DNA of 64,000 bases, from contig NZ_JAFMSU010000001.1 in assembly GCF_017916365.1 (NCBI RefSeq), forward strand, positions 744,001-808,000. The letters are read 5' to 3'. Positions 9,777 through 63,442 of the stretch are shown piece by piece (positions within the stretch are counted from its first letter, which is position 1; each line of letters opens with the position of its first letter). The DNA comes from Rufibacter roseolus. GTDB lineage: Bacteria; Bacteroidota; Bacteroidia; Cytophagales; Hymenobacteraceae. Below the pieces are notes generated by a model that had not been told where the DNA came from, did not search any database, and saw only the letters and a program-made list of their open reading frames with translations. The position numbers and the translations under genes are program-made.

Positions 9777-10814
9777 ATGGATCAACACTTACTAGACCGT
9801 TTTTACAAGGGGGCATGTACCCCTGATGAGGTGAAGGCGGTATTGGAGTGGTTTAAGAATCAGAAACTTACCCCTGAGCAGGAGCTTGAAATGAAGGAGC
9901 TGTGGGCGCAGGCGGGACACCACCAGTCTGAGCCGGCTTACGCACATGACGCAGATAAAACCTGGCGCAGTTTAGAGGCCCTTATTCAAAAAGACACCCA
10001 AAACCAGGAGCCCGAAGCCAAGGTGCTGCCCCTGCAGCCAAACGCCTGGACCAAATGGATGCGCGTAGCCGCCGCCATTCTGCTGCCCCTGGGCTTGATC
10101 TGGTTTGTGGCCTCGCAATACTTTCAAAAGGAGATGGTCGTTGGGAAAATGATGGCCGTGCAAACTGCCCCCGGCGAGTGGAAAACCGTGCAACTGGAAG
10201 ACGGGTCCTCGGTGGTGATGCGGCCGGGCAGCAAGGTGCGCTACCTGGTGCCTTTTGCCCAGAACAGAAGAGACATCTCGCTGGAGGGCGAGGCTTTCTT
10301 CCAGGTGGCCAAAGACAAAAACCGCCCCTTTGTGGTAAAGTCAGGCACTATCTATACCCAGGCCCTGGGTACCTCCTTCAATATCAGATACCAGTCTAAA
10401 GACACCGCTATCTCTGTGGCGCTGGCTACCGGTGTGGTGAAAATCAGCAAAGGAGAGACCGGAGAGGAAACCACCTTGGCCAAATTGGTGCCGGGGCAGC
10501 AACTGGTGTTCAACCGCAGAAACCAGAGACATGCCGTGGATACCTATAAAGCAGAGGAAGTGCTGGGCTGGAAAGACGGGGTGCTTTATTTCAAAAAAGC
10601 CAGCTTAGAAGAAGTGGTAAATAAAATAGAAAACTGGTACGGCGTGCAAGTTGAAGTGCAAGGCATGGGGCCAGCCAGTAAAGAAACGTGGAGCTACACC
10701 GGTGAATACAGACAGCAAAGCCTGCCCCAGGTACTGGAAGGCATTGGCTTTGTGAAGAACTTTACTTACCAGGTGAACCAGAACCAAGTGCAGATAACCT
10801 TCAAAAGACCATGA
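9777..10814 (+). CDS. FecR family anti-sigma factor
   Basis: 345 residues. The N-terminal cytoplasmic ~85 residues (LLDRFYKGACTPDEVKAVLEW) form the sigma-binding part. One transmembrane helix follows (AAAILLPLGLIWFVASQYF, about residues 94-112). The periplasmic FecR domain comes next (VQLEDGSSVVMRPGSKVRY, ISLEGEAFFQVAKDK, RPFVVKSGTIYTQALGTSF). Last is a DUF4974-like STN-fold tail (LEEVVNKIENWYGVQVEV) that receives the signal from the SusC STN domain. It lies between the divergent sigma gene and the STN-containing SusC, which completes a sigma/anti-sigma/transducer cascade that switches on the PUL when glycan binds the transporter. Confidence 0.93.
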   Translation: MDQHLLDRFYKGACTPDEVKAVLEWFKNQKLTPEQELEMKELWAQAGHHQSEPAYAHDADKTWRSLEALIQKDTQNQEPEAKVLPLQPNAWTKWMRVAAAILLPLGLIWFVASQYFQKEMVVGKMMAVQTAPGEWKTVQLEDGSSVVMRPGSKVRYLVPFAQNRRDISLEGEAFFQVAKDKNRPFVVKSGTIYTQALGTSFNIRYQSKDTAISVALATGVVKISKGETGEETTLAKLVPGQQLVFNRRNQRHAVDTYKAEEVLGWKDGVLYFKKASLEEVVNKIENWYGVQVEVQGMGPASKETWSYTGEYRQQSLPQVLEGIGFVKNFTYQVNQNQVQITFKRP

Positions 10815-10952
10815 GCTTATGAGAAGATGACTTGTTCTTTTAACAGGTAAGCCACTGGGTGGCCTACCTGTCAACTACCTCCGGAAACCAGATGTTGGCG
10901 CATCCAGATCCATGAGGCAATTCAAACACTAAATACTAAACACTCTCAATAT

Positions 10953-13900
10953 ATGGAAAAAAACGTTTACGGCGTCCTGAAAGGAATGTCCTGGAAAGCT
11001 TTGGCGGTATTTGTGCTGCACCTGGCTTTCTTCTCATCTGGTTTTGCCGCACCCGGCAAGGCACCGGTGAGCACTATTCAAAAAACCAAAATCACTCTCT
11101 CCATCACTAACGGCACCCTGCAGGAATTCTTCCGGAAGGTAGAGGCCGAGACCCTGTTCAAGTTCACGTTTGATGAGAACGAAGTGCCTAGCCGGTCTAA
11201 GGTATCGGTGCAGGCCAAGAATGAACCCTTGGATAAAGTCCTGGAGAAAGTAGCGGCTACCACCAACCTGGAGTTCAAACAGGTGAATAACAACATTCAT
11301 GTGCGCACCAGAAATACCAGAGCAGCGCAACCAAAAGCTTCTGTGGCTCCGGTGGTACAGGACGGTTTCCGGGTTTCTGGTAAAGTGACCGATGAGAACG
11401 GCACCGGATTGCCCGGCGTTACCGTTTCCGTGAAAGGGACCACCAATGCCACTTCCACCGACGTGAACGGAGGCTTCTCTTTGAACGTCCCAAACGGAAC
11501 CGGCACCCTGGTGCTCTCTTACATCGGGTACATGACCCAGGAAGTAGCCATTGAAAGCCGTTCTACCATCAACGTAGCCCTGGCTCCAGATACCAAATCC
11601 TTGCAAGAGGTAGTGGTGATTGGGTATGGTACGCAGAAAAAAGAAGACATTACCGGTTCTGTATCAGTTATTGACAACGAAGCCTTTGACGCCCGCCCTA
11701 ACACCCAGGTGGGGAACCTGATCCAGGGTAAAACCGCCGGTGTGCAGGTATTGACCAACTCTGGAAAGCCATCAGCGGGTTTCAACATCCGCATCCGGGG
11801 TACCAGCTCTATTACCGCCAACAGTGATCCTTTGTACGTGGTAGACGGCGTGCCTTCTACAGACACCAGAAGCCTGAACCCCGCCGATATTGAAAGCATC
11901 TCTATCTTGAAAGACGCTTCTTCTGCCGCTATTTACGGTGCGCAGGGTGCCAACGGGGTAGTGTTGATTACCACCAAACGCGGTAGAACCGAAAAACCTA
12001 CCTTTGAATTCAGCACCTATACTGGGGTTTCCCAGGTTTGGAACACGCTGGACGTTTTGAACGCCGAGCAGTACCGTGACCTGATGACTGAGCTGGGCCA
12101 GAACACAGACTGGAGCCGCTACCAGGAGAATACTGACTGGCAGAAAGAAGTTTTCCAGAACGGAAGTTCTTTGAACTACCAGTTAGCCGTTTCCGGGAAG
12201 ACCGACAAAACCAACTACTACATCTCTGGCGGTTGGATGAAGCAGAACGGCGCCGTGCGTAGCTCTACCATGGACCGCGCCAGCTTTAAAGTGAACCTAG
12301 AGCAGAAGCTTTCCAACTGGTTAACCGTGGGGACCAACATGGGCTACACCCGCTACCATGACGTAGACGTAGCCGATAACCAGTCTGTAAACCAGGGCGG
12401 GGTAATCCTGGGCGTATTGTCAACCCCGCCAGTAATTGGAATATACAACGCTAACGGAACCTTCACCAGCAACCCGTTCCAGGACTGGGAAAACCCTATC
12501 TCCAGCACCGACGGTTCTGACCGCAACTACCGTAACCAACGCTTATTAGGCAACGTGTACGGCGAAGTGCAATTGCTGAAAGGCCTTAAATACCGCGCCA
12601 ACTTTGGTATTGACTACATCAGCGCCATCAACGACTACTTCCTGGATCCGTTCAGAACCAGCTATGGCCGCGCCAGAAAAGGGATTGGCCGTAACAGCAC
12701 CAACCTCACCAACTACTGGATTCTGGACAACACCCTTTCTTACGCCAAAACCGTGGGTCAGCATAACTTCAGCGCCATGGTGGGTTCTGTGCAGCAGAAA
12801 TTTGATTGGGAAAACAGCAGCATTGAGCGCACTGAGTTCTCTGGAACCGCGGTGACTACCCCAGGCGCTGGTGCCGTAATTCAGTCAGCTACTGCTGACA
12901 AATCTGAGAAAGCTAATACCTCCTTCATTAGCCGAGTTACCTATGATTTTGCCAATAAATACCTGGTGACTGCCAATTTCAGAGCAGATGCTTCCTCTGT
13001 GTTCGGTCCGGAAGTGCGTTGGGGCTACTTCCCATCAGCGTCTTTGGGCTGGAGAGTCTCAGAAGAGACCTTCTTTCCTAAAACCAACGTGGTGAACGAT
13101 GTTAAACTGAGAGTAGGTTGGGGATTGGTTGGAAATGACACTGGTTTAGGGGCATATGCATTTAGACCGCTCGTAGGATATGGTGCTAATTATCCAATTG
13201 GTGGCACTGCCCAACCTGGTAGCTATCCTGCATCTATTGGGAATTACCAATTGGGCTGGGAAGCATCAGAGCAAACCAACGTGGGCTTGGATGTCGCTTT
13301 CCTGAATTCCCGTATTGCGTTAACCATTGATGCTTACCTAAAGAAAACCACAGATCTCTTACTTCCAGTGGAAGTGCCAAGATCAACCGGTTATAACGGC
13401 GGTGATGCCAACGTGGGCCGACTGGATAACAAAGGTCTTGAATTTCTGGTGAGCTCACAGAACCTGGTGGGTGATTTCTCTTGGACCACTGACCTGAACT
13501 TGTCATTCAACAGAAACAAAGTAATAAACGTTTTAGGCCAGAGCTTCCCCGGTGGAGGAGTGGCTGGTAGAGGTGACGTAGGCTTGTCAAGAGAAGGTTC
13601 TCCGCTGGCCCTATTCTACGGATATCGGTGGGGTGGGGTAGACCCAACTACTGGTATGGCGTACTACATCAACAAAAACGGTGAAAGCACTTTCACGCCT
13701 TCACCAGATGATCGCACTATAATTGGTAACCCCAACGCAGACTTCATCTACGGGGTAACTAACACCTTCTCCTACAAAAACTTTGGTTTGAGCATCTTCT
13801 TGCAAGGCTCGCAGGGCAACGACATCTTCAACGCTACCCGCATTGAAATGGAAGGTATGTCTGACCCGAAAAACCAAGGCATCGCTGTTCTGAATCGTTG

Positions 13901-14234
13901 GAGAAAAGACGGAGACATTACGGATATCCCGAGAGCGGTTTGGGCCAATACAGACAATTCACGCATCTCTTCCCGCTTTGTGGAAGACGGTTCCTACGTG
14001 CGTTTAAAAACCCTTACCCTCAGCTACAATTTGCCTACTACGCTGTTGTCTAAGATCAAAATGAACAACCTGCGCCTCTATGCCACCGGCGAGAACCTGT
14101 TCACCATCACAAACTATTCAGGGTTTGACCCAGAGGTTAACGCCTTTGGTGGCAGCAACAGAGCGCAGGGTATTGATTTTGGTACTTATCCGCAGACACG
14201 CAACTTAATCTTAGGCCTGAATCTTTCCTTCTAA
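10953..14234 (+). CDS. SusC/RagA TonB-linked outer-membrane transporter with STN domain
   Basis: 1093 residues. Signal peptide to about residue 33, then an STN secretin/TonB-N domain (LSITNGTLQEFFRKVEAET... KFTFDENEV... NNNIHV, about 46-115) that contacts FecR. Next is a carboxypeptidase-regulatory-like domain (VSGKVTDENGTGLPGVTVSV, about 143-220) and the SusC signature EVVVIGYGTQKKEDITGSV. The plug domain has IRIRGTSSITANSDPLYVVD and YGAQGANGVVLITTK, and the ~22-strand barrel ends in LILGLNLSF with the terminal aromatic. It imports oligosaccharides bound by the SusD lid, powered by TonB. Here it is also the signal transducer. SusD follows after 10 bp. Confidence 0.95.
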   Translation: MEKNVYGVLKGMSWKALAVFVLHLAFFSSGFAAPGKAPVSTIQKTKITLSITNGTLQEFFRKVEAETLFKFTFDENEVPSRSKVSVQAKNEPLDKVLEKVAATTNLEFKQVNNNIHVRTRNTRAAQPKASVAPVVQDGFRVSGKVTDENGTGLPGVTVSVKGTTNATSTDVNGGFSLNVPNGTGTLVLSYIGYMTQEVAIESRSTINVALAPDTKSLQEVVVIGYGTQKKEDITGSVSVIDNEAFDARPNTQVGNLIQGKTAGVQVLTNSGKPSAGFNIRIRGTSSITANSDPLYVVDGVPSTDTRSLNPADIESISILKDASSAAIYGAQGANGVVLITTKRGRTEKPTFEFSTYTGVSQVWNTLDVLNAEQYRDLMTELGQNTDWSRYQENTDWQKEVFQNGSSLNYQLAVSGKTDKTNYYISGGWMKQNGAVRSSTMDRASFKVNLEQKLSNWLTVGTNMGYTRYHDVDVADNQSVNQGGVILGVLSTPPVIGIYNANGTFTSNPFQDWENPISSTDGSDRNYRNQRLLGNVYGEVQLLKGLKYRANFGIDYISAINDYFLDPFRTSYGRARKGIGRNSTNLTNYWILDNTLSYAKTVGQHNFSAMVGSVQQKFDWENSSIERTEFSGTAVTTPGAGAVIQSATADKSEKANTSFISRVTYDFANKYLVTANFRADASSVFGPEVRWGYFPSASLGWRVSEETFFPKTNVVNDVKLRVGWGLVGNDTGLGAYAFRPLVGYGANYPIGGTAQPGSYPASIGNYQLGWEASEQTNVGLDVAFLNSRIALTIDAYLKKTTDLLLPVEVPRSTGYNGGDANVGRLDNKGLEFLVSSQNLVGDFSWTTDLNLSFNRNKVINVLGQSFPGGGVAGRGDVGLSREGSPLALFYGYRWGGVDPTTGMAYYINKNGESTFTPSPDDRTIIGNPNADFIYGVTNTFSYKNFGLSIFLQGSQGNDIFNATRIEMEGMSDPKNQGIAVLNRWRKDGDITDIPRAVWANTDNSRISSRFVEDGSYVRLKTLTLSYNLPTTLLSKIKMNNLRLYATGENLFTITNYSGFDPEVNAFGGSNRAQGIDFGTYPQTRNLILGLNLSF

Positions 14235-14244
14235 TCAAGCAGAT

Positions 14245-15729
14245 ATGAAACTGAATAGAATAGCAATATATACACTGGCCGGCGCTCTCTTGATGGGAGC
14301 CCCAGCCTGCGATGATTTCCTGGAACTAGCACCAATTTCTCAGGCAACTGTAGATAACGCCTATAAAACCGCTAGCGATGCTGAGGCGGCACTAACCGGC
14401 GTTTATGAGTCGTTTCAGGCAGAGTACTACATCTGGGATAACTTGGTGTTCAGCGAGATTCTCTCTGATAACTATTATGCCGGGGGTGACAACGCCGAGA
14501 TCTTTGCCGTTGACAACGTAGCCATCACGCCTACCAACAGCCGTCTGTGGAACAACTGGAGCCAGATCTACAACGCCATTGCCAAAGCCAACGTGGTGTT
14601 GCAGAAGGTACCTCAGATCACAGACCCGCAGTTATCAGAAACCCGCAAAAACCAAATCTTAGGCGAGGCTGCTTTCCTGCGCGCATACCATTACTTCCAA
14701 CTGGTGAAAATGTGGGGCGGTGTTCCGTTGGTGTTAGAGCCAGTAACTTCGCTTGATCCAGCTACGACTCAAAAGCCCCGCGCCACCGAGGTTGAGGTCT
14801 ACAACCAGATTGTGGCCGACCTGACCTTTGCCTTGGAAAACAGACTGCCTGATACCTACGGAGAGAATGCCAGCGTGAACAAAGCCCGTGCTACCCGTGG
14901 TGCCGCCAACGCCTTGTTAGCGAAAGCCTGGGCCCAACGCCCAGACCGCGACTACAACAAAGTGCTGCAGTACGCCGATGCCGTGATCAACAGCCCGGCC
15001 AATTACCAGCTGCTGAGCAACTTCAACGATCTGTTTGACGGTGCCCATTACAACAATGCCGAGTCTATCATGGAGGTGCAGTTCATTGGCGGAAACGAAG
15101 CCAACTGGGGTCCTCAGATGCTGCTCCCACCGTCTTTGAGCGGCGACACCTGGCGTAAATTCATGACCCCGTCGCATGACCTGGTGAATGCCTACAACTC
15201 TGAGAACGACAACGTCCGGAGAAACACCACCATCTTGTTTGAGAATGCGCCTTGGTCAGATGAGTTCTGGTCAGTGAGCACCGGCGGAAGCGTGCCATTC
15301 GCATACCGCTGGAAAAGCGCCAACGGCTGGGCTAGCACCAACCGCCAGTACCTCTTCAGACTGGCAGATATCATGCTCCTGAAAGCCGAAGCCCTGAACG
15401 AACTGGGCCGCCTGGAAGAAGCCAGAACCGTGCTGAACGCCGTGCGCAGAAGAGTAAACCTGGGCGCGAATACCTCCACTACCAAAGAGGATATGAGAAT
15501 GGCCATCCTGAAAGAGCGCCGTCTGGAGCTGGCCCAGGAAGGTCACCGTTGGGATGATCTGCGCCGTTACGGCGTGGCTGCCCAGGTGATGAACAGCCTC
15601 AATGAGATTGACCTGCGCACCAATACCCGCAAGGAGTACAACGTAGCGCCCCATGAGCTGTTCCTGCCTATCCCTCAGTCAGAAATCAACCGTAACCCGC
15701 AGTTGACGCAAACCTCGGGTTATAACTAA
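14245..15729 (+). CDS. SusD/RagB family nutrient-binding lipoprotein
   Basis: 494 residues. Lipobox MGAPAC near residue 22, followed by the usual CDDFLELAPISQAT start. The SusD core is built of TPR-like helices (FLRAYHYFQLVKMWGGVPLV, NALLAKAWAQ). The C-terminal RagB signature is RQYLFRLADIMLLKAEALNE ... ILKERRLELAQEGHRWDDLR, and the protein ends PIPQSEINRNPQLTQTSGYN. It caps the SusC barrel at the cell surface and presents glycan fragments. Translationally coupled or near-coupled with SusC (10-bp gap). Specificity is inferred from the neighbouring GH30/GH3 enzymes, not from SusD itself. Confidence 0.95.
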   Translation: MKLNRIAIYTLAGALLMGAPACDDFLELAPISQATVDNAYKTASDAEAALTGVYESFQAEYYIWDNLVFSEILSDNYYAGGDNAEIFAVDNVAITPTNSRLWNNWSQIYNAIAKANVVLQKVPQITDPQLSETRKNQILGEAAFLRAYHYFQLVKMWGGVPLVLEPVTSLDPATTQKPRATEVEVYNQIVADLTFALENRLPDTYGENASVNKARATRGAANALLAKAWAQRPDRDYNKVLQYADAVINSPANYQLLSNFNDLFDGAHYNNAESIMEVQFIGGNEANWGPQMLLPPSLSGDTWRKFMTPSHDLVNAYNSENDNVRRNTTILFENAPWSDEFWSVSTGGSVPFAYRWKSANGWASTNRQYLFRLADIMLLKAEALNELGRLEEARTVLNAVRRRVNLGANTSTTKEDMRMAILKERRLELAQEGHRWDDLRRYGVAAQVMNSLNEIDLRTNTRKEYNVAPHELFLPIPQSEINRNPQLTQTSGYN

Positions 15730-52018: not shown

Positions 52019-53533
52019 TTAGTACCCAGGGTTTTGCTCTAAACCTGCCGTACGTACGTCTTCGCCCGGGATAGGCAGCACGTTGTGCTTGCCTTCTTTG
52101 TAACCCAACGGACCTAGCTCCTGGGCAGCAAGGCCCCAGCGTACCAGGTCTACGTAGCGGAAACCTTCAAAAGCAAGTTCCATGAAGCGTTCGTTTACAA
52201 TGGCGGTAAACAGGGCGGTGCCGCTGGCGGTTACCGGCGTCAATTCTGACCGCTGTCTCACCATGTTCAGGTATTCGCGTGCTTTGCCTTCGTTGCCGGC
52301 GCGGTAATGGGCCTCGGCAGCCATCAATAACACGTCTGCGTAGCGGATCATGCGCCAGTTGGTACCGTAGTTCAGCTCAGATACCGGACCACCGGTCTGG
52401 CTGCTGAAAGTGCCGTATCTTCTCTGGAAATAGCCCTCGTAGTCATAAGCGGTGGGGTTGGTCCAGTTACCGCCCATGGCTTTCAGCTCGGTTTCAGACA
52501 TCACAGTGGCTTGTTTCCTTTCCACATCGCCGGCGGCCACGAAAGCCTGGTAAAGCTTGGCTTTAGGAGAGTTGAAGCCCCAGCCCCCGATCAGGGAATC
52601 TGACGGAGCCTTGGTGTAGAAGTCGCTTCTTGGGCCCATCAACTGAAGGTGGATGTTGCTTTCTGGCTGCGCCCCCCAAGGGAAGTTCCCCCAGTCATAG
52701 CTTTGGGTTTTGGTGTAGGAGATCTCAAACAGAGACTCTTTGCCAAACTCGCCGGCCTCAGAGAATGCCTTGCCCACCGATGACTCTAACTCAAATTGGT
52801 TTGAAGCGATAACGGCTTCAAACTGGGTGGCGGCATCTGCCCATTTCTGCTGGTAGAGCATGGCTTTGCCAAGCAACGCCTGGGCTGCTCCCTTGGAGGC
52901 TCTGAACCGGTCTGCGCCGGTCAATGCGCTTTTCTGGGGAAGGTCTACCATGGCTTCTTGCAAGTCCTTCTCAATCTGAGCGTAAACGGCAGTTTTGGCG
53001 GCTCTGCCGGTGCTGCTCCATTGTTCAATAGGAATGTCGCCGGTTACCAACGGCACGTCGCCCCACAGAGACACCAGTTCAAAGTAGTTGTAAGCCCGCA
53101 GGAACTTGGCCTCAGCAATCAGCCTTTTGCGTAGTTCCGTTTCCGGCTGCACGTTGTTGATGACTTTGTTGGCCCGGTAGATGGCACCGTAGGTCAGTCT
53201 CCATCCCCATTTCACGGCGTCATTCTCGCTGTCAAAGTTGAAGTCGTCCAGGGTCTGGTAGGCAGGCTGGTCACCAGGTCCGCTACCGGCGGCGTTGCTT
53301 TCATCAGACGGCATGGTCTTCACCATGTAGATACTGCTCCAGGCGGTGTTGTAGTGCGCCTGCATGATGTCATAGATGGCGGTAGTGGCCTGGAGCGCGT
53401 CTGCGTCTGTTTTGTAGAATTCCTGCTCAGAAAGCTTGCCGGGTACCTCCTGGTCTAAGAAGTCTTTACAGCCAGAAGTCATGGCCATAAGGGCTAAACC
53501 GAATGCTGCAATCTTGATATAATTCTTCTTCAT
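52019..53533 (-). CDS. SusD/RagB family lipoprotein (second pair)
   Basis: 504 residues. Lipobox MTSGC (about 18-22) and CKDFLDQEVPGKLSEQEFYK. The core has FLRAYNYFELVSLWGDVPLV and RASKGAAQALLGKAMLYQQK; the C-terminal RagB motif is MIRYADVLLMAAEAHYRAGN ... VNERFMELAFEGFRYVDLVR with PIPGEDVRTAGLEQNPGY at the end. It partners the SusC gene whose stop is 12 bp upstream. No glycoside hydrolase is adjacent, so the ligand is unknown. Confidence 0.95.
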   Translation of the reverse strand: MKKNYIKIAAFGLALMAMTSGCKDFLDQEVPGKLSEQEFYKTDADALQATTAIYDIMQAHYNTAWSSIYMVKTMPSDESNAAGSGPGDQPAYQTLDDFNFDSENDAVKWGWRLTYGAIYRANKVINNVQPETELRKRLIAEAKFLRAYNYFELVSLWGDVPLVTGDIPIEQWSSTGRAAKTAVYAQIEKDLQEAMVDLPQKSALTGADRFRASKGAAQALLGKAMLYQQKWADAATQFEAVIASNQFELESSVGKAFSEAGEFGKESLFEISYTKTQSYDWGNFPWGAQPESNIHLQLMGPRSDFYTKAPSDSLIGGWGFNSPKAKLYQAFVAAGDVERKQATVMSETELKAMGGNWTNPTAYDYEGYFQRRYGTFSSQTGGPVSELNYGTNWRMIRYADVLLMAAEAHYRAGNEGKAREYLNMVRQRSELTPVTASGTALFTAIVNERFMELAFEGFRYVDLVRWGLAAQELGPLGYKEGKHNVLPIPGEDVRTAGLEQNPGY

Positions 53534-53545
53534 GGATTCTGTTGC

Positions 53546-56500
53546 TTAGAAATTTAAGTTTAAACCAAACATCGCTAATCTTGGCACTGGGTAAGTACCG
53601 CGGTCAATGCCTAAGCTGTTGGCGTTGTTGCTGCCTGCCTCTGGGTCCAGGCCAGGGTAGTCTGTGAAGGTGAAGTAGTTATCCAAAGACACATAAACGC
53701 GGGCGTTTCTCATTTTGAATCTTTCGGTTACTGCATTTGGCAGGGTATAGCCCAACTGTAACTGACGAACGCGGGCGTAAGAGCCATCAAATACCATCAG
53801 GTCACTGTTGTAAACGTAGGCGTTGGTAGTGCTTGCTCTAAAGCCGGTGTTGGTGCTGCCTTCTCCGGTCCAGCGGTCTTCATAGAAGAAAGCCGGTTTG
53901 TTGGCGGTAGGGCGGTCTGTACGGCTAAAGCCCAGGATCACATCATTGCCAATCTGACCCTGAACGAAGGCCAGCAGGTCAAAACCTTTATAAGCCAGGT
54001 TCACGCGGGCACCGAAGATCAGGTCTGGGTGGGGGTTACCGATCATAGCGTAGTCGGCAGGGGAAATCTGCTTGTCACCGTTGGTGTCAAGCACAATCGG
54101 ATCACCTGGTTTAGGGCTGTAACCGGTGATTTGGGTTCTGGCCAGGTACTCGCTGATCTGCTCTTCATTCTGGAAGATACCATCGGTTTTATAGCCTCTC
54201 AGGTACCAGATTGGGAAGCCTTCTTTGAAAACGGTAGCAGACCAACCGGTTCCCACGCTGGCGCCAGGAATCTCGTTTACGTTAGGGTCCAGGTAGGTTA
54301 CTTTGTTCTTGATGGCGGTGAGGTTTCCGGATAACTCATACTGGAAGGCTTCTGCAGCATCATTGCGGTAACCTAGCTCAAATTCCCATCCTTTGTTCTG
54401 TACGTTACCGCCGTTCACGAACGGAAGCGCAGCGCCCACAAAGCCTGGTGCAACCCCTGGCGTAATCAGGTCGATGGTCTTTTTGTCGAAATAATCGGCG
54501 GTGAAGGTCAGGCGGTTGTTGAACATGCCTAAATCAATACCGAAGTCCAATTGCTCACTGGTTTCCCAAGTAAGGTCTGGATTAGCTAGGGTAGTAGGAG
54601 CGGCCCCCACCAGGTAGTCGCCTGAACCATCTGGATAACGTCCCACAACTCCTACGGCAGCTAACCAATCTCCTATGCGGGAGCTTGAAAGGGAACCGTT
54701 CTGGCCCCAGCTGGCGCGCAGTTTCAGGTGGTTAATTTTGGTTTCTGGGAAGAAGTCTTCGTTAGAAACAACCCAGCCCAAAGAGATGGAGGGGAAAGTA
54801 CCCCAGGCGTTCTCAGGCGAAAACAGAGAAGATCCGTCTCTTCTTACGGTAGCGTTCAACAGGTATTTGCCAGCGTAGTCATAAGAAAGTCTGCCGTAAT
54901 AAGAGGCCAGGGTGCTCACATTGGCGTTGCTGCCTATGCGGTCCAAGGCGTCTGGGGTTGTGTCTGCGTAAGAGAACTTATCTTCCTCTTTGAAAAGGCC
55001 AGAGTAGCTTCCGCCAATGTAATTCCACATGCGTTTCACCGCAGAGGTACCAGCCAGGAAGGTGAAGCCGTGGTTATTAATCTGCTTGGTGTATGTAGCG
55101 AAGTTCTCCCACTGCAGGTTAAACCAGTTGTTCTGGGAGTCTGAGCCGTTTGCGATGGAGTTCAGGTTTTCGCTGGAGAACCAGAAAGTAGGGGTCCAGT
55201 TGTGTTGTCTCTGGAAAGCCCCGTCAATCCCGAAACGGGAAGTGAACTTCAATCCTTGGATGGGCTCCACGTCTGCGTACACGTTACCTACCACTTTGTT
55301 CTGGGTAGTCTGGCCTCTGGCCAAGGCAATTCTGGCCAATGGGTTACCGTACTCTCCTCTAATGAAGTTAGAGATACCGTAGTAGTTACCGTTTTCATCG
55401 CGCACCAATGGCTGGCCAGCCTGGATGGCAGCGGTTACGTGGGCAGGTAGCGCCCCGGTGTAGATAACCGGAGTCAAAGGGTCCATGGACAGGGCACTGC
55501 TGATCAAACCTCCAAACTCATCGTTTTCTGCTAGACCTCTGCGTCTGAAGTTGGAGTAAGAGAATCTTTCCCCAATGTTCAGCCAGGACTTGATTTTATG
55601 GTCTGAGTTGATGCGAACGGTATAACGGTCAAATTTGGCTTTGTCACCGCCCACAATACCCTCCTGGGTGAAGAAGTTACCGCCTACCAGGAAGCTGGAT
55701 TTCTCTGATCCCCCGCTGAAGCTGATGGAGTGGTGTTGTTGAGGCGCCGTCTGGAATAATTCATCAAACCAGTTAGTGCCGGCTCCGGCGGCAGTGGCTT
55801 CGGCAACCGTTGGTCTGCCCGGGCTGTTAGATTCCTCCAGGTACTGCTGGTACTGCTGGGGGTTCATCATGTCCATCATTCTACCCACAGACTGTCTGCC
55901 GTACTGGAATGCGTAGCTGATCTCTGAGGTGTTGACTTTGCCGGTTTTAGTGGTGATGATTACTACTCCGTTGGCGCCTTCAGCCCCGTAGATGGCCGCT
56001 GAGGCCGCGTCTTTCAATACTTCAATAGAAGCGATCTCTGAAGGATCCAGGAATTCAATGCCCCCGGCTCTTACGCCATCAACAATATAAAGAGGCTCTG
56101 AACCAGAGTTTGAACCAGTTCCTCTTACCCGTACGCGCATCCCGCTGCCCGGAGAGCCTGACGCAGGTAATACTGTAACACCGGCAGTGCGGCCCTGTAA
56201 GGCTTGCTCTACCCGGCTGGAAGATACCGTGGCAATCTCCTCTGCTTTCACTGAGGAAATGGCTCCGGTCACTAAGCTTTTTTGCTGGGTTCCGTAACCA
56301 ACAACCACTACTTCTTCCAATGCTTGTTGGTCTTCCTGCATTGCAGCGTCAATTGAAGTTCTTCCATTGATAGCAATTTCCTGGTTCACGAACCCAATGT
56401 AGCTTATCACCAAGGTGGAGGCATTTGAAGGAGCCTGTAACTGATATCTGCCCTCCACGTCGGTTGTGGTACCGGCTGTAGTACCTTTTACTACCACGCT

Positions 56501-56617
56501 AACGCCTGGTAGAGGCTCACCACCACGGGCGGAGGTTACCCTACCCGTAATTGTGGTTTGAGCAAACGCCACGCTACTTATAAACAGTAGCAAAAAGGTT
56601 AGTAGTTTGTTCTTCAT
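53546..56617 (-). CDS. SusC/RagA TonB-linked transporter without STN domain (second pair)
   Basis: 1023 residues from ATG 56617, where a normal signal peptide starts (LTFLLLFISSVAFAQ); the open frame to 56686 is rejected because it covers promoter DNA. No STN domain is present, so ECF/FecR signalling is unlikely. The carboxypeptidase-like domain is ITGRVTSARGGEPLPGVSVV; the SusC box EEVVVVGYGTQQKSLVTGAI; the plug MRVRVRGTGSNSGSEPLYIV and IYGAEGANGVVIITTK; the barrel ends AMFGLNLNF. Regulated from a phased TTGATGTA repeat array at 56695-56747, also seen upstream of the third SusC. Confidence 0.94.
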   Translation of the reverse strand: MKNKLLTFLLLFISSVAFAQTTITGRVTSARGGEPLPGVSVVVKGTTAGTTTDVEGRYQLQAPSNASTLVISYIGFVNQEIAINGRTSIDAAMQEDQQALEEVVVVGYGTQQKSLVTGAISSVKAEEIATVSSSRVEQALQGRTAGVTVLPASGSPGSGMRVRVRGTGSNSGSEPLYIVDGVRAGGIEFLDPSEIASIEVLKDAASAAIYGAEGANGVVIITTKTGKVNTSEISYAFQYGRQSVGRMMDMMNPQQYQQYLEESNSPGRPTVAEATAAGAGTNWFDELFQTAPQQHHSISFSGGSEKSSFLVGGNFFTQEGIVGGDKAKFDRYTVRINSDHKIKSWLNIGERFSYSNFRRRGLAENDEFGGLISSALSMDPLTPVIYTGALPAHVTAAIQAGQPLVRDENGNYYGISNFIRGEYGNPLARIALARGQTTQNKVVGNVYADVEPIQGLKFTSRFGIDGAFQRQHNWTPTFWFSSENLNSIANGSDSQNNWFNLQWENFATYTKQINNHGFTFLAGTSAVKRMWNYIGGSYSGLFKEEDKFSYADTTPDALDRIGSNANVSTLASYYGRLSYDYAGKYLLNATVRRDGSSLFSPENAWGTFPSISLGWVVSNEDFFPETKINHLKLRASWGQNGSLSSSRIGDWLAAVGVVGRYPDGSGDYLVGAAPTTLANPDLTWETSEQLDFGIDLGMFNNRLTFTADYFDKKTIDLITPGVAPGFVGAALPFVNGGNVQNKGWEFELGYRNDAAEAFQYELSGNLTAIKNKVTYLDPNVNEIPGASVGTGWSATVFKEGFPIWYLRGYKTDGIFQNEEQISEYLARTQITGYSPKPGDPIVLDTNGDKQISPADYAMIGNPHPDLIFGARVNLAYKGFDLLAFVQGQIGNDVILGFSRTDRPTANKPAFFYEDRWTGEGSTNTGFRASTTNAYVYNSDLMVFDGSYARVRQLQLGYTLPNAVTERFKMRNARVYVSLDNYFTFTDYPGLDPEAGSNNANSLGIDRGTYPVPRLAMFGLNLNF

Positions 56618-56654
56618 AAATACAGTTTCGTTAAAAATATCCGATTTTAATGGT

Positions 56655-56662
56655 CTAATATA
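56655..56662 (-). promoter_or_regulatory. Candidate -7 element of second SusC
   Basis: TATATTAG on the minus strand (7 of 8 match to TAnnTTTG), with 32 nt between it and the proximal repeat of the TTGATGTA array. No TTG -33 is correctly spaced, as expected for an activator-dependent promoter. Confidence 0.5.
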
Positions 56663-56694
56663 ATATAATAGCAAAATAATGCTCAAATATTAAT

Positions 56695-56747
56695 TACATC
56701 ACTAATACATCAAGCGTGGTATTTCTCTGCGTTAGCACTACATCAAA
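56695..56747 (-). promoter_or_regulatory. Phased TTGATGTA direct-repeat array before second SusC
   Basis: On the minus strand: AGTGATGTA (56695-56703), CTTGATGTA (56706-56714) and TTTGATGTA (56739-56747). Offsets 0, 11 and 44 bp from the proximal copy are exact multiples of 11. All are in the same orientation, toward SusC. Confidence 0.7.
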
Positions 56748-57372
56748 AAGCTGAAAAAAGCCCTAAAATGCTTAGTAAGGCAGTTTTTCAATTCATTAGG
56801 GTTTGAAATAAATTTTCATTAAAAATTGTGTCTTTTTTAAGTGTTTTTTTGACGAATCTTCATTTTTAAGCTAAAAACCCACCTTTTGTTAACATCTTGT
56901 CCCACTTTTTAGCCTATGATGTATTGGGCTATTTCCTTTGCTAGGGATGCTTCAGGCTAGCTTTTGGGTTGAAGTTGAGTTGTGGATCCTGGCAGAAGGA
57001 TGCCGCTGAGGTTTAATGCCGGAGAAAGGAAAGAGCGCTTTAAGTGCCCGATGAATTTCAGGGTTAGGGAAGGGAGAAAATCCTAGAGGGAAATGCTGAA
57101 GAGAGATAGGTTGTTTTAAGCCCGTTTTCTGAGAAGCGATTCCATAACGAAAGGAAGGAGACTGCAAGGTTGGATTGCTTATAACCACAGCAAACGCCAA
57201 AACTGACATGCTCCAATTGTGCTTGTGAAAGATGTATTTTATCTGCGTTTATTTCTTTCTGTTTTGAGGCTGTTTTTGCAAGATCGGACCCAAGGCATTG
57301 AAGTGAAAGGGGGTATAAAACGAAACCCGCAGCTTTCGCCACGGGCTCGCTCCCTTCAGAAAGATACAATTG
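56748..57372. other. Non-coding DNA between second SusC and truncated lipoprotein
   Basis: No gene. AT-rich to about 56900. Two half copies of the dispersed hairpin occur, at 57112-57150 (GTTTTAAGCCCGTTTTCTG) and 57259-57295 (TCTGTTTTGAGGCTGTTTTT). Nothing else is recognised. Confidence 0.5.
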
Positions 57373-57702
57373 TTATAAGGCTGCCACCGATACTTTGGCG
57401 GTTTTCTTGGCTGGGTTGGGATTCGCGGTATTGGGGAAAGGCAGGACCTCGGTCAGAATCAGGCGGTAGGTTTTGCTGCCCAGGGTGGCGTTGACTGTAT
57501 CCGCAGTGCGGAAGCCCCGGTTGTCTGGCGCCGTGAGCGGTTCTCCCAGGTATAGAACCTTGGTGGCACTGTTGCCTTGAGCATCCTGCAGTTGCACATA
57601 CGTGATGGCTGATCCCGCCTTGATACAGTTGGCATTGATGGGGCAGCGGCTTTCATCTACCTTTTGCAGGTTCCGGGTGAGGTCGCCGGCGGCTACGGGC
57701 TT
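57373..57702 (-). pseudogene. Truncated paralogue of the small lipoprotein at 51427
   Basis: The minus-strand frame reads KPVAAGDLTRNLQKVDESRC, PINANCIKAGSAITYVQLQD, then LGEPL and TLGSKTYRLILTEVLPFP to VSVAAL. It matches the second half of the 146-residue lipoprotein, including RCPxxxxCIxAG. An in-frame TAG (57703-57705) comes directly before it, and no signal peptide or start codon is left, so the 5' end is gone. Only an internal GTG at 57597 could start a 74-residue product. Confidence 0.8.
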
Positions 57703-58051
57703 CTAAAGGTGTTTCTTAGTGCTTAGCTTGTTTTTTGTAAACCCGCTGCATTATGTCTTCTCCTGACATTGCCTGATATTATGTTGCTCTTCTTTGTTCC
57801 ACGATGACCCGAACTCCAGTACAGCAAGTCCAAAATTTCCCAAGGCTGCAGGAAAGCATAGATGGGAAAAGGGAATCCTACCACAGAGGCAGCTATCCAA
57901 GTAAAAATAGCTATCCCTATATGTAATGGGTCTCACTAAAGGAATGTCATTTTTACAACTAGAAAAAGGAGTAGTGTGAATAAAAATAATGCTTTTGATT
58001 TCACTTTTAGCAAAAACGTTACTTAAAGGGCTGTGAAGCTCTTTTTGTCTG

Positions 58052-58115
58052 CTTGATGTACCCTTGATGTATTCTTGATGTACTCTATAAAACAGCCTGA
58101 TGTAGTTGTGACGTA
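58052..58115 (+). promoter_or_regulatory. Phased TTGATGTA direct-repeat array before third SusC
   Basis: CTTGATGTA at 58052, 58063 and 58074; degenerate CTATAAAAC at 58085; CCTGATGTA at 58096; TGTGACGTA at 58107. The period is exactly 11 bp over six positions. The proximal copy is a GTGAYGTA variant, as in the minus-strand array, and ends 32 nt before TATATTTG. Confidence 0.75.
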
Positions 58116-58147
58116 CTGCTAATTAGGCTAAACATTTGCCAATTTTA

Positions 58148-58155
58148 TATATTTG
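58148..58155 (+). promoter_or_regulatory. Candidate -7 element served by the repeat array
   Basis: TATATTTG, exact TAnnTTTG, without a correctly placed TTG upstream. The 58116-58147 spacer to the array is 32 nt, identical to that at the second SusC. Confidence 0.55.
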
Positions 58156-58446
58156 GGTTCTAAAACAGGATTTTTTTTAACAAAACCGAATTTAGAGAAC
58201 AAAATACTTTTTTCTCTTCTCTTGTGCAGGAGTAGCATTTATTTAGCTCAATGCAATGCTCTGTGATGCCTACAATTATTGTGATAAGCTCAGGCAAGTG
58301 AAAGTGGAGCAGAAAAATGCTTCTTCAAGAGGAGAAAATGGGATGGTAAAAATGCATTTCTCAAAATAAACCTTATTTGAATAGATCATCAATTAAGAGA
58401 AGTACATAAAATACGTCCTAGATATATAGTTTTCATAATTTTCAGC

Positions 58447-58478
58447 TTGTGATTACAATGCAAAGAGTAGTATCTTTG
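58447..58478 (+). promoter_or_regulatory. Second possible promoter of third SusC
   Basis: TTG (58447-58449), 21 nt, TATCTTTG (58471-58478): consensus-like, would give a leader of about 255 nt. Confidence 0.45.
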
Positions 58479-58739
58479 AAATTGTATTAAACCGTAATTG
58501 CATCTTTTTTCAATTAAAATACAGTTAATGATGAGTTTACATTCTATAAACCCTTAAACAGATGCCTATTGGAATTTGAAATGATCTGAAAAAATGCTGT
58601 TAATATATCTAAGTTCGAAGCCTTATCTACTAACCTTTCTATGAAACAGGAATCTTGAACTTCAGGTTGAGAAAATCTACAAGCTAGAACTCGTGTCCTA
58701 AAAATTGATAATGCAGATACAAAACCTTAAATACAATAC

Positions 58740-61700
58740 ATGAAAAAAATACTACTACTAGCTTTTAGCTGCAGTATGGTAGTCGGATACCATAGTGCAG
58801 AAGTACACGCTGGAGCATTGAAAGATTCTCCGTTATTACCAAAGGCAAGTGCCAAGTCTGCTAAAAAAGCAAAGGCGAATGCCGTAGATGTAAATGTAAC
58901 AGGCAAGGTTACCTCAGAAACTGGAGAGCCACTGATTGGCGTATCTGTAGTGCTGAAAGGTACAGCCACGGGAACTTCCACAGATATTTCCGGAAACTAT
59001 TCTATTGCTGTGCCTGATAACGGAGGAACGTTGGTTTTTTCCTACATCGGTTTTGTTTCCAAGGAAGTACCGGTTGGTAGCAACAATGTGATGAACGTCA
59101 CCCTTGTTTCAGACGCCAGAGCTCTGGAAGAAGTAGTGGTGGTAGGGTATGGTACTCAAAAGAAAAGCGTTGTTACCGGAGCAATCTCAAGTGTAAAAGC
59201 TGCTGATTTGGAGGGTTTACCTGTTACAAGGGTAGAGCAGGCCTTGCAAGGCAGAACGTCTGGTTTAACAATCACGTCCAACTCTGGCCAGCCAGGGGAA
59301 GGGGCAACCGTGCGGGTAAGAGGAACCACTACCATTGGTAACAGCAATCCGCTTTACATTGTGGATGGTGTTCAGGTTGGTGGCGGTATTGAATACCTGA
59401 ACCAAGCCGATATTGAATCAATCGAGGTTTTAAAGGATGCGGCTTCGGCGGCTATCTACGGTGCCCGGGCAGCCAATGGGGTAATCATTGTTACCACCAA
59501 GAAAGGGAAATCCGGCAAGATGTCAATTAACTATAATGGTTATGTGGGTACCCAGGCTCCCTGGCGTAAGCTGGATCTGCTAAATGCCCGTGAATATGCC
59601 GTTATTGCCAATGAGGGCAGTGTAGCCAGCGGCGGCGGCATCATTTTCCAGAATCCTGAATCTTTAGGAGAAGGTACTAACTGGCAAGAGGAAGTTTTCA
59701 GTGACAATGCCAGTATTCAGCAGCATGACATCAGCATGTCTGGAGGAAGCGAAAAGTCTACCTTCTACACATCTTTTGGTTATTTCAAACAAGAAGGGAT
59801 TGTAGCACCTTCTAACTCACAATTTGAGCGGTTTACAGCACGGGTTAATGCTTCGCATAAACTAACCGACGCCTTGACTTTTGGTACCAATATTGGGTAT
59901 ACCCGCATTGGTTCAGTAGGTGTTGCTACTAACACTGAGTATGGCTCTCCTCTAAACCGGGCCATCAACTTAGACCCAATCACACCTCTTGTAGAAACGG
60001 ATCCATCCATCATCAACTGTGCCACTTGCCCTTACACGCAACAGCCCGTGGTGAGAGATGCTCAAGGAAGACCTTACGGAATTTCTAACTACGTCTTCTC
60101 TGAGATTGTAAACCCTATTGCTGCCTTGGCTGTGGCCCAAGCCAGAGGATGGTCTGATAAAATCGTGGCAAATGCCTTTGGTGAATTGGAACTGTTCAAA
60201 GGGTTCAAACTAAGATCAAGCATTGGTACTGACTTAGCTTTCTGGGGAGATAGAAGCTTTTCACCGGTTTTCTACCTGAATGCTACCAACAGCAACGTAC
60301 TCAATGATTATACCCGCAACAACAACCGTGGCTTGTTCTGGTTATGGGAAAATACGGCCTCATATAACCGTGTCTTCGACAAACATGACCTTACCCTATT
60401 AGCCGGAACAACCGCCCAGCGGAACTATGGCGAAACCCAGGGAGGTACCAGATCTGGCTTGCCAATTGATAATCTGGATGATGCCTCATTGGCATTCCCG
60501 GTTCCTCAGGCAAACCAACAATACTATGGGGGAGAATATCAGGAAACGTTGGCTTCTCTCTTTGGTCGCGTTATCTATAATTTCGATGAGAAATACCTGT
60601 TCACCGGTATCCTGCGCCGGGACGGATCTTCACGGTTTGGCCCTAACAACAAGTACGGTTACTTCCCATCTGTTTCAGTAGGCTGGGTAGCTTCACGTGA
60701 AGACTTCTTCCCTGACAACAATGTTGTTAATTTCCTGAAATTCAGAGGTTCTTACGGAGTAAACGGGAATAACCAAATTGGTGATTTCAGGTATTTGTCC
60801 ACAGTAGGAGGTGGCAGAAACTACACGCTGGGCACTAGCACCAATGCTACTTTGGTAAATGGGGTAAGCCCGAATGCTATTTCAAACCCAGATTTACGGT
60901 GGGAGGAAACATCTCAGTCTGATATAGGGTTTGACGCGGTGTTATTCAACAATATCAACTTAACCGTTGATCTATACAAGAAGAAGACTACCGGTATGCT
61001 CTTAGACATTGCTGTTCCTTGGTATGTTGGGAATAACGGCCCGGTGGGTAACATCGCTGATATGGAGAACAGAGGTTTTGAAGTGGAATTAGGCTATGGC
61101 AAAACCATCAATGACTTCAGCTTCAATGTGAGCGGTAATGCTTCTTACTTAGAAAATGAAGTAACCAGCCTGGGCTCAGAAAAGAAATTCCTGAATGGTC
61201 AGACCTTTGGCCCTGCGGGGGAACAAATCACCCGCACCGAAGTTGGTCGTCCGGTAGGCTTTATCTATGGGTTCAAGACTGACGGTTTATTCCAGACTCA
61301 GGAAGAAGTGAACTCCTACGTGAACAGCACCGGAGCCTTGTTACAGCCAAATGCTAAGCCCGGTGATTTACGCAAAGTAGATGTGGACGGAAACGGCATT
61401 ATTGATAACGACGACCGGACCATGATCGGGAACCCAACTCCAGACTGGACCTTCGGTTTCACCGCATCGGCTAAATACAAAGGCTTCGACATACTGGTGT
61501 TCGGGCAAGGTGTTTCAGGGAACGATGTATTCAAAACCCTAAGACGCCCAGACCTGAACGGGGCCAACTGGACCACTGAGGCATTAGGTCGCTGGACAGG
61601 AGAAGGAACCTCCAACAGTTTCCCCCGGATAGTACAAGGAGACCCAAGCCAGAACTTTAATCGTAGCTCTGATTTCTATGTGGAAGATGCCTCTTATTTC

Positions 61701-61919
61701 AGGGTGAAGACGTTGCAAATTGGCTATTCTCTGCCAGAGTCACTTATCAGCAGAGTGCACATGAACAAACTGCGCTTATTTGTTACCGGTAATAACTTGT
61801 TAACCTTTACAAAGTACACCGGCTTTGACCCAGAGATTGGTGGAGGAAGCTATGGGGTTGACCGTGGTATCTATCCGCAAGCCCGGTCTCTGATGTTTGG
61901 TTTAAATGTGGGTTTTTAA
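58740..61919 (+). CDS. SusC/RagA TonB-linked transporter without STN domain (third pair)
   Basis: 1059 residues. Signal peptide (LLLAFSCSMVVGYHSAEVHA), an unusual Lys/Ala-rich linker (ASAKSAKKAKANA), then the carboxypeptidase-like domain NVTGKVTSETGEPLIGVSVV. The SusC box is EEVVVVGYGTQKKSVVTGAI, the plug VRVRGTTTIGNSNPLYIVDG and IYGARAANGVIIVTTKKG, and the barrel ends LMFGLNVGF. Residues 421-424 (CATC) form a close Cys pair in a surface loop. Lacks STN. It forms an operon with SusD 11 bp downstream and a PKD lipoprotein. Likely imports an oligosaccharide; the PKD partner is often part of laminarin-type loci, but no enzyme is visible before the window ends. Confidence 0.94.
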   Translation: MKKILLLAFSCSMVVGYHSAEVHAGALKDSPLLPKASAKSAKKAKANAVDVNVTGKVTSETGEPLIGVSVVLKGTATGTSTDISGNYSIAVPDNGGTLVFSYIGFVSKEVPVGSNNVMNVTLVSDARALEEVVVVGYGTQKKSVVTGAISSVKAADLEGLPVTRVEQALQGRTSGLTITSNSGQPGEGATVRVRGTTTIGNSNPLYIVDGVQVGGGIEYLNQADIESIEVLKDAASAAIYGARAANGVIIVTTKKGKSGKMSINYNGYVGTQAPWRKLDLLNAREYAVIANEGSVASGGGIIFQNPESLGEGTNWQEEVFSDNASIQQHDISMSGGSEKSTFYTSFGYFKQEGIVAPSNSQFERFTARVNASHKLTDALTFGTNIGYTRIGSVGVATNTEYGSPLNRAINLDPITPLVETDPSIINCATCPYTQQPVVRDAQGRPYGISNYVFSEIVNPIAALAVAQARGWSDKIVANAFGELELFKGFKLRSSIGTDLAFWGDRSFSPVFYLNATNSNVLNDYTRNNNRGLFWLWENTASYNRVFDKHDLTLLAGTTAQRNYGETQGGTRSGLPIDNLDDASLAFPVPQANQQYYGGEYQETLASLFGRVIYNFDEKYLFTGILRRDGSSRFGPNNKYGYFPSVSVGWVASREDFFPDNNVVNFLKFRGSYGVNGNNQIGDFRYLSTVGGGRNYTLGTSTNATLVNGVSPNAISNPDLRWEETSQSDIGFDAVLFNNINLTVDLYKKKTTGMLLDIAVPWYVGNNGPVGNIADMENRGFEVELGYGKTINDFSFNVSGNASYLENEVTSLGSEKKFLNGQTFGPAGEQITRTEVGRPVGFIYGFKTDGLFQTQEEVNSYVNSTGALLQPNAKPGDLRKVDVDGNGIIDNDDRTMIGNPTPDWTFGFTASAKYKGFDILVFGQGVSGNDVFKTLRRPDLNGANWTTEALGRWTGEGTSNSFPRIVQGDPSQNFNRSSDFYVEDASYFRVKTLQIGYSLPESLISRVHMNKLRLFVTGNNLLTFTKYTGFDPEIGGGSYGVDRGIYPQARSLMFGLNVGF

Positions 61920-61930
61920 TTTTATAAAAC

Positions 61931-63442
61931 ATGAAACTTAACAAATCAATATATACATCCTTATTCTTGGCAGGGCTGGTAGCCTTCAGCTCCTGTGACA
62001 AAGAATTCCTGGAGTTAACTCCAAGGGGAACAGAGTTAGAAGGTAATTTCTACCAGAACGAAACTCAGGTGATGCAGGGCTTGGTAGCCGTGTATGATGT
62101 AATGCAGTGGGGTAACAGCGGTGGCTATACCATGAAGCAACCCTTGCTTACCGTTGCCTCTGACGAAGCCCACGCGGGGGGAGGCAGTGCCACAGACCAG
62201 GTGAGCTGGGTGGCCTGGGATAATTTCACAGTAGATCCTTTCATCAGCCCCTCTACTGGCTTATGGCAAAAGAACTTTACCGGGGTTTATCGGGCTAACC
62301 TGATATTAACTAAAATTGAAGAAGCACCTGCGTTAAGTCAAGCTTTTAAAACCAGAGCTATTGCTGAGGCAAAAACTCTGCGCGCTTATTTCTATTTTGA
62401 TCTGGTTCGCTTTTTTGGACGGGTTCCGTTGATCACGGGCGCCATTCCTACCAGTGATTTATATTCACAGAAACAAGCTACACCGGCAGAAATCTATGCT
62501 CAGATAGAGAAAGACCTGAAGGAAGCCCGTGTTGATTTGCCAAGTTCTGTTCCTGCAACTGAAAAAGGTAGGTTAACGAAATATGCCGCTACTGCCCTCT
62601 TAGGCAAAGCCATCATGCACCAGAATGATAATGGCCGTATGGCTGAAGCTGCCGCCCTTTTTAAAGAAGTGAACACGGCAAGCAATTATCAGCTGTTGCA
62701 GAACTATGGTGATATCTTCAAACCAGACAACCAATTTAATGCGGAGTCCATCTTAGAGATTCCTCATTCTACTAAAGGTGTTTGGGGTGACTGGGGTTGG
62801 GTGAACGGAGGAGAAGGCAACGTAGCCCCTCAGTTTGTTGGCCCAGAAAATTACAATGGACCTTTATATTCTGGAGGTTGGGGTTTTGCTCCTATCTCGT
62901 TGGATTTGGTTGCGGCCATGACAAATGCGGACATGACAAGAGATCCGCGTTTTGAACACACTATCATTGATGGTAAAGCTTTGAAAGCACAGGGAGCCTC
63001 TTACAATCCACGGTATCAGAATACTGATTATTTCATTAAGAAATATGCCCCGTATGCAAGTGCTAAGTCTCCTGTAGGTACGCCGGAATTAAACTGGCCA
63101 ATCAATGAGATTGAAATCCGTTTGGCAGATACTTATTTGCTGGAGGCAGAAGCATTGGTTCGCAGTGGCGGAGATGCAACCAGAGCCAAAATGCTTTTAG
63201 ATGCCGTGCGTGCCCGTGTTGGTTTGCCGTCTGTACCGGCTACGTTGGATAACATCTACCGTGAACGTCAACTGGAATTAGCCACTGAAGGGCACCGCTT
63301 CTTTGATTTGGTACGCACCGGTAGAGCAGCCGCTGTTTTGGGGCCACTTGGGTTCAAAGCCAACAGAAACGAGTTTTTGCCTATTCCACAGCAGGAGATT
63401 GATATTACTAACAGTACTATCACGCAAAACCCAGGCTATTAA
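61931..63442 (+). CDS. SusD/RagB family lipoprotein (third pair)
   Basis: 503 residues. Lipobox AFSSC (about 19-23) then CDKEFLELTPRGTELEGNFY. The core has TLRAYFYFDLVRFFGRVPLI and KYAATALLGKAIMHQND; the RagB end is EIRLADTYLLEAEALVRSGG, IYRERQLELATEGHRFFDLV and ITQNPGY. Close in layout to the second SusD, including DEAHAGGGSATDQVSWVAWD against DESNAAGSGPGDQPAYQTLD, which suggests that the two divergent operons arose from related loci. It binds glycan at the surface with its SusC. Confidence 0.95.
   Translation: MKLNKSIYTSLFLAGLVAFSSCDKEFLELTPRGTELEGNFYQNETQVMQGLVAVYDVMQWGNSGGYTMKQPLLTVASDEAHAGGGSATDQVSWVAWDNFTVDPFISPSTGLWQKNFTGVYRANLILTKIEEAPALSQAFKTRAIAEAKTLRAYFYFDLVRFFGRVPLITGAIPTSDLYSQKQATPAEIYAQIEKDLKEARVDLPSSVPATEKGRLTKYAATALLGKAIMHQNDNGRMAEAAALFKEVNTASNYQLLQNYGDIFKPDNQFNAESILEIPHSTKGVWGDWGWVNGGEGNVAPQFVGPENYNGPLYSGGWGFAPISLDLVAAMTNADMTRDPRFEHTIIDGKALKAQGASYNPRYQNTDYFIKKYAPYASAKSPVGTPELNWPINEIEIRLADTYLLEAEALVRSGGDATRAKMLLDAVRARVGLPSVPATLDNIYRERQLELATEGHRFFDLVRTGRAAAVLGPLGFKANRNEFLPIPQQEIDITNSTITQNPGY

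Follow-up and report, generated by a model that had tools for sequence, protein, structure and literature searches.

MalT, a soluble ATP-binding protein that is kin to LuxR, is the nearest cited precedent of the LuxR/FixJ type for a regulator with direct-repeat binding sites. It is cited as an activator whose site is a direct repeat of two decanucleotides, and NarL and GerE are described as using inverted repeats (excerpt of PMC6099782). SusR-like activators of PULs in Bacteroides are membrane regulators with a periplasmic sensor and a C-terminal HTH at SusC/D loci. Their predicted sites are direct repeats on one DNA face with two boxes 67 or 77 bp apart, and the predicted motifs of HTCS are direct repeats with a spacing of 21 bp on average (excerpt of PMC3878776). 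Many of the laminarin-type gene clusters compared in a 2026 paper start with a LuxR-annotated gene (excerpt of PMC13188888).

The locus described here resembles each of these systems in part. Its heptamers are direct repeats, as are the sites of MalT, but its candidate regulator is predicted to be membrane-bound. Judged from its sequence, this regulator would have the architecture and the genomic setting of the SusR-like activators, whereas its heptamers, scanned within about 70 bp, lie at about 0, 11, 34 and 45 and thus differ from the SusR sites. A Reg_prop/Y_Y_Y-type sensor and direct repeats at PUL promoters are shared with HTCS, but the spacing is different. No description of an operator of this kind for such regulators was found in the open-access literature searched.

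The window, the whole stretch of 64,000 nt that was analysed, carries two divergent SusC operons, each with an array of heptamers upstream of its SusC gene. The features to which we refer are listed below (window positions, except for the last line).

52019..53533, minus strand: SusD of the minus operon (domain scan)
53546..56617, minus strand: SusC, native type, with congener orthologues at 91, 85, 76 and 74% (start set from orthologues)
56655..56662 (56662-56655), minus strand: TATATTAG, putative -7 element of the minus SusC (sequence match)
56684..56687 (56687-56684), minus strand: TTTG, possible -33 element of the minus promoter, 21 nt before the -7 box (read from sequence)
56695..56701, minus strand: proximal heptamer TGATGTA of the minus array, offset 0 (sequence match)
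56706..56712, minus strand: heptamer TGATGTA of the minus array, offset 11 (sequence match)
56739..56745, minus strand: heptamer TGATGTA of the minus array, offset 44 (sequence match; the layout recurs before the congener orthologue)
58054..58060, plus strand: heptamer TGATGTA of the plus array, offset 55 (sequence match)
58065..58071, plus strand: heptamer TGATGTA of the plus array, offset 44 (sequence match)
58076..58082, plus strand: heptamer TGATGTA of the plus array, offset 33 (sequence match)
58098..58104, plus strand: heptamer TGATGTA of the plus array, offset 11 (sequence match)
58109..58115, plus strand: proximal heptamer TGACGTA of the plus array, offset 0 (sequence match)
58123..58127, plus strand: TTAGG box at the -33 position of the plus promoter, 20 nt before the -7 box (read from sequence; also at the -33 position in 10 of 23 relatives' arrays)
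58148..58155, plus strand: TATATTTG, putative -7 element of the plus SusC (sequence match)
58740..61919, plus strand: SusC of the probably acquired operon, 68-70% to the nearest Pontibacter-type relatives fetched (sequence comparison)
61931..63442, plus strand: SusD of the plus operon (domain scan); the PKD protein and GH16 continue beyond the window (L057)
C1:1714737-1717637: candidate regulator of the host genome, about 914 kb away from both arrays (91% identity with its orthologue)

Direct TGAYGTA repeats occupy an 11-bp grid, at offsets 0, 11 and 44 in the minus array and at 0, 11, 33, 44 and 55 in the plus array, where slot 22 is empty; these layouts agree base for base with those claimed in the earlier note. 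The proximal copies are GTGATGTA and GTGACGTA, and each ends exactly 32 nt before TATATTAG or TATATTTG, so that the claimed common spacing is exact at both promoters. The same note held that both promoters lack a TTG at -33 and that an activator replaces this contact. The first statement is doubtful given the TTTG and TTAGG boxes listed above, and the second is unsupported, as these boxes occupy the very place of the -33 contact. A coding origin of the arrays was rejected, no ORF of at least 40 aa lying over them in the slice 56001-59000. The ORF start called mechanically for the minus SusC (56686) is too far upstream, and the ATG that matches the orthologues is at 56617. If transcription starts at the predicted promoter, the 5' leader of the plus SusC would be about 580 nt long (window 58156-58739).

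The paired motif TGAYGTAN4TGAYGTA occurs four times in the window and in none of 100 shuffles. Across the whole genome (5.5 Mb) it was again found four times, every one in these two arrays. When one mismatch to TGATGTAN4TGATGTA was allowed, six places were obtained genome-wide, the four in the window arrays plus two more on contig C2, each ahead of a GH16 gene; these two GH16 genes are predicted from sequence to belong to the same regulon. Thirty-five SusC genes of the host genome score over the family cut-off, and the array (up to one mismatch) precedes just two of them, both in the window. A general role at SusC promoters, as the earlier note had envisaged, was therefore rejected in favour of a regulon operator, at a threshold that more degenerate arrays would escape. 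The window also holds a different type of control: at 9777-15729 a FecR-type protein is followed by a SusC gene (C1:755370) and a 494-aa ORF.

A total of 204 family genomes (Hymenobacteraceae) were searched for the pattern, with a backward-pattern control that was not clean, as 13 of the matches it gave in the 23 fetched loci coincide with the arrays. The pattern is present in 14 of the 16 genomes of the window's genus. Twenty-three TGATGTA arrays of relatives were selected on an exact 11-bp pair, which makes offsets 0 and 11 given; in the roughly 70 nt that precede the proximal copy, other heptamers (up to one mismatch) are found at 32-34 (20/23) and 43-45 (17/23) only. The operator of the relatives thus consists of four heptamers at 0, 11, 32-34 and 43-45, and because no other positions are used, the empty slot 22 is a constant gap. 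Three arrays (L038, L048 and L052), located before GH16 genes or their place, have a further copy downstream of the counted pair. The genes that follow the 23 arrays encode SusC in 18 cases, a GH16-type protein in three (two of them assigned from relatives or by eye) and a protein with a CBM56 match in one, and in the remaining case there is no such gene. At L048 (G140:C77, about 142.5 kb) the array lies where syntenic congeners have a GH16-type gene, and no GH16-type ORF follows it.

The distance to the promoter is kept over a narrower range. In 13 of 25 arrays, the window's two included, TA..TTT follows the proximal copy at 32-33 nt, and three matches are at other distances (locus L058, in the wrong orientation, is missing from this and some other array counts, and L123 is an unusable stretch). 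By contrast, among 34 arrays of other genera only 3 of 16 TA..TTT matches are at 32-33 nt, so the -7 distance is not conserved there. The fixed promoter distance proposed earlier hence holds for the window's genus and two Pontibacter-type genomes and fails elsewhere. One congener that has the regulator carries the 0/11/44 layout before a minus-SusC orthologue that is 93% identical, the proximal copy there having one mismatch. In a single case of a congener without the regulator, the minus-type SusC is kept (87%) and a single array copy is left.

When named genomes were scanned with an alignment of the candidate regulator, at least 578 stretches encoding a relative were obtained, of which the best 80 were used; this type of regulator is thus numerous and found in many Bacteroidota. 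Thirty-two of 35 divergent promoters were retained, three Rufibacter-type loci being set aside to keep the set independent. At these SusC promoters of other genera, the 11-bp TGATGTA pair (up to one mismatch) occurs in 26/32 compared to a mean of 0.01 and a maximum of 1 in shuffles. In the reverse orientation the pair is absent from all 32, even at up to two mismatches. The next best lag after 11 is 33, in 10/32 (up to one mismatch); at up to two mismatches lag 8 also rises, to 15/32 compared to 29/32 at lag 11. SusC promoters in the same direction as the regulator have the pair in 8/9 and lag 33 in 7/9, loci with other divergent neighbours have the pair in 5/17, and the GH16 loci of Flavobacterium with a related regulator have no such pair (0/12), these locus groups overlapping in a few loci.

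Co-occurrence across genomes points in the same direction. Of the 39 family genomes that have an A/B-type regulator (tallied by hand, one having the gene in two pieces), 25 contain non-coding arrays, compared to at most 1 of 165 without. In the Pontibacter-type genus the corresponding values are 11/22 and 0/28. The p-values of 5e-21 and 2e-5 are too small, as the genomes are related. It should be noted that 29 family loci were classified, that eight of them, located inside ORFs of 307-541 aa, several of which look SusD-like by eye, were left uncounted, and that one in a 114-aa ORF accounts for the "at most 1"; the arrays of genomes G150, G158 and G195 were called non-coding from gene positions.

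The candidate regulator is a protein of about 965-967 aa. At 15 of the 23 relatives' loci its gene is divergent from the array, and in most cases SusCD-PKD-GH16-GH3 genes adjoin. Fourteen of these 15 genes are intact and located 40-158 nt from the array, and one is split into two frames. The split gene (L047/L090, G140:C77:77-2979) consists of two open frames and adjoins a native-type SusC with an array. Reg_prop and Y_Y_Y scored above cut-off when two orthologues were scanned with Pfam, and hydropathy revealed two segments only, a signal-like one at 1-25 and a hydrophobic one at 753-776, which is likely a transmembrane helix. With the whole regulator, two PDB matches were obtained at E <= 0.01, the hybrid two-component sensors 3v9f and 4a2l, over the Y_Y_Y part. 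The C-terminal HTH gave weak profile matches to LuxR/FixJ-type chains (FixJ, EsrB, EL222 and SsrB; E 0.0017-0.07), and Pfam GerE scored 18.1 bits, under the cut-off of 23.5. Unlike in HTCS, no kinase, receiver or AraC domain was detected, nor an OmpR-type winged helix, in the Pfam scans of the two orthologues, and the NCBIfam scan gave no SusR model. On the absence of these domains HTCS, AraC and OmpR were rejected as the regulator type; the earlier assignment to one of these families is unsupported, the conserved neighbour of the array having a LuxR/FixJ-like HTH instead.

Pairing residue X of the recognition helix RGVE-X-SRY with base 4 of the repeat gave 57 rows of Ile with T, three of Ile with A and 16 of Thr or Ser with C. 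In a survey of 105 loci with base 4 left free, the pair is present at 17/17 Thr loci, where base 4 of the proximal copy is C, and at 61 of 68 Ile loci, where base 4 is T in 58 and A in three and seven lack the pair; it is absent from the Asp loci of Flavobacterium (0/12). At up to two mismatches residue and base agree in 78 of 79 rows. On a tree of 102 regulators (99 different) from which the HTH was left out, the residue class switches twice, and the base switches with it both times (sign test, p 0.5). This count covers 73 rows that have no more than one mismatch, T or C as base 4 and a residue that could be read; the three Ile-A rows and one C row with an unreadable residue are omitted. The covariation is striking, yet it comprises two independent events only. 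In the profile alignment, the counterpart of X is V in FixJ and T in EsrB. The matching residue of NarL touches bases, a point that our literature search did not confirm. The plus array of the window departs from the pairing in its proximal copy, TGACGTA, though the resident regulator is of the Ile type.

Taken together, these results suggest that both arrays are very probably operators of one trans-encoded one-component regulator, the product of C1:1714737-1717637. This protein would be membrane-bound, with a signal-like N-terminus, a Reg_prop/Y_Y_Y sensor, a transmembrane segment, a charged linker and a C-terminal LuxR/FixJ-like HTH, and a periplasmic beta-1,3-glucan oligosaccharide would activate it. 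Each of the two HTHs of a dimer could then contact one heptamer of a head-to-tail pair with a spacing of 11 bp, and a second dimer could occupy the upstream pair, about three helical turns off, both pairs being on one DNA face and upstream of -33. The proximal pair, which ends 32-33 nt before the -7 box, would recruit RNA polymerase to both SusC promoters and is predicted to do the same at the two distant GH16 genes. The earlier proposal of an activator is strengthened by comparison as far as one DNA-binding sensor-regulator for both operons and head-to-tail repeats in helical phase are concerned. Such an operator, with its spacing rules, allows a regulon to be predicted from sequence, including which SusC genes respond to laminarin-type glucans, and the residue code offers a single-residue test of specificity.

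Another trans-encoded regulator, of the HTCS/AraC or OmpR type, might bind the arrays, the LuxR-type gene being a mere frequent neighbour. HTCS are indeed common at PULs and their predicted motifs are also direct repeats, about 21 bp apart (excerpt of PMC3878776). However, the spacings of the array are 11 and 32-34, not 21, the array tracks the LuxR-type regulator across families along with changes in its recognition helix, and none of the recurrent neighbours scanned (clusters 2, 3, 4, 7 and 46) is another regulator, which leaves this explanation very unlikely. The LuxR-type regulator could also act on the array as a repressor released by its ligand, or have a dual role, activating SusC and repressing its own divergent gene, and the position of the array between divergent genes in 15 of 23 fetched loci would suit such a role. 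Sites located upstream of the promoter rather than over it are usual for activators, and the array is so placed, at a fixed 32-33 nt within the genus; we consider repression unlikely.

The origin of the two operons bears on the remaining explanations. Their likeness at the promoter could stem from a recent duplication, as they are divergent neighbours that both start with SusC and then SusD. This was rejected and is given next to no probability, the two SusC proteins being 43% identical and having different nearest relatives, Pontibacter-type for the plus operon and congener orthologues (74-91%) for the minus one; moreover, the 23 fetched arrays reveal that the array is conserved before other genes in relatives. 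The plus SusD is 72-74% identical to the Pontibacter-type proteins fetched, the values for Paraflavitalea are 64% (SusC) and 72% (SusD), and the plus SusC reaches at most 49% in other genomes of the window's genus. From these comparisons, from the orthologues of the minus SusC and from a flanking repeat, the plus operon was probably acquired. The repeat is a 330-bp part of the inter-operon gap, of which a second copy (87%) with unchanged orientation lies past the plus operon (L057:5865-6194), perhaps a trace of the insertion of this operon. A transferred operon might have brought its array as a non-functional leftover, since the proximal plus copy TGACGTA is of the Thr-type class and a 2-kb gap with a gene remnant separates the operons. 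Yet four of the five plus copies are exact TGATGTA, in keeping with a resident regulator of the Ile type. Offsets and distance to the promoter, too, are canonical but for one extra copy, and the chance of a leftover seems small. The gene remnant lies at window 57373-57702 on the minus strand, with 109 aa aligned at up to 69% identity to longer congener copies.

The plus operon contains SusC, SusD, PKD and GH16, with no GH3 seen adjoining. The main cluster of the relatives is SusC-SusD-PKD-GH16-GH3 and includes the SusC/D, GH16 and GH3 genes of a beta-1,3-glucan PUL. The polymer taken up via both gene sets is probably a beta-glucan. Beside the host regulator itself, the operon is gone and two array copies 23 bp apart remain. 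The scar (L073:11192-11497 and upstream) includes a 101-aa ORF, 71 aa of which match a GH16-cluster protein at 89%, and the genus-typical SusC has no close copy elsewhere in the host genome (best 47%). These observations are compatible with a regulatory capture, in which the resident regulator lost its cis SusC-SusD-PKD-GH16 operon by deletion and a similar foreign operon, placed beside a native target 914 kb off, came to be run in trans. Control in trans would follow from a promoter that carries, or gained, a five-heptamer array fitting the resident recognition helix. We put forward this history tentatively, at somewhat less than an even chance, together with a one-residue code (Ile-T, Thr/Ser-C, base 4) for widespread membrane LuxR-type PUL regulators.

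Regulators of a paralogous clade (about 33% identity; L074, L122 and L124-L139) are encoded next to another SusC/D pair. Before the SusC genes of this clade the repeats, TGATGTAG-type elements, are arranged differently, and several of the promoters contain an inverted ACATCATTACCTCTCAT stretch.
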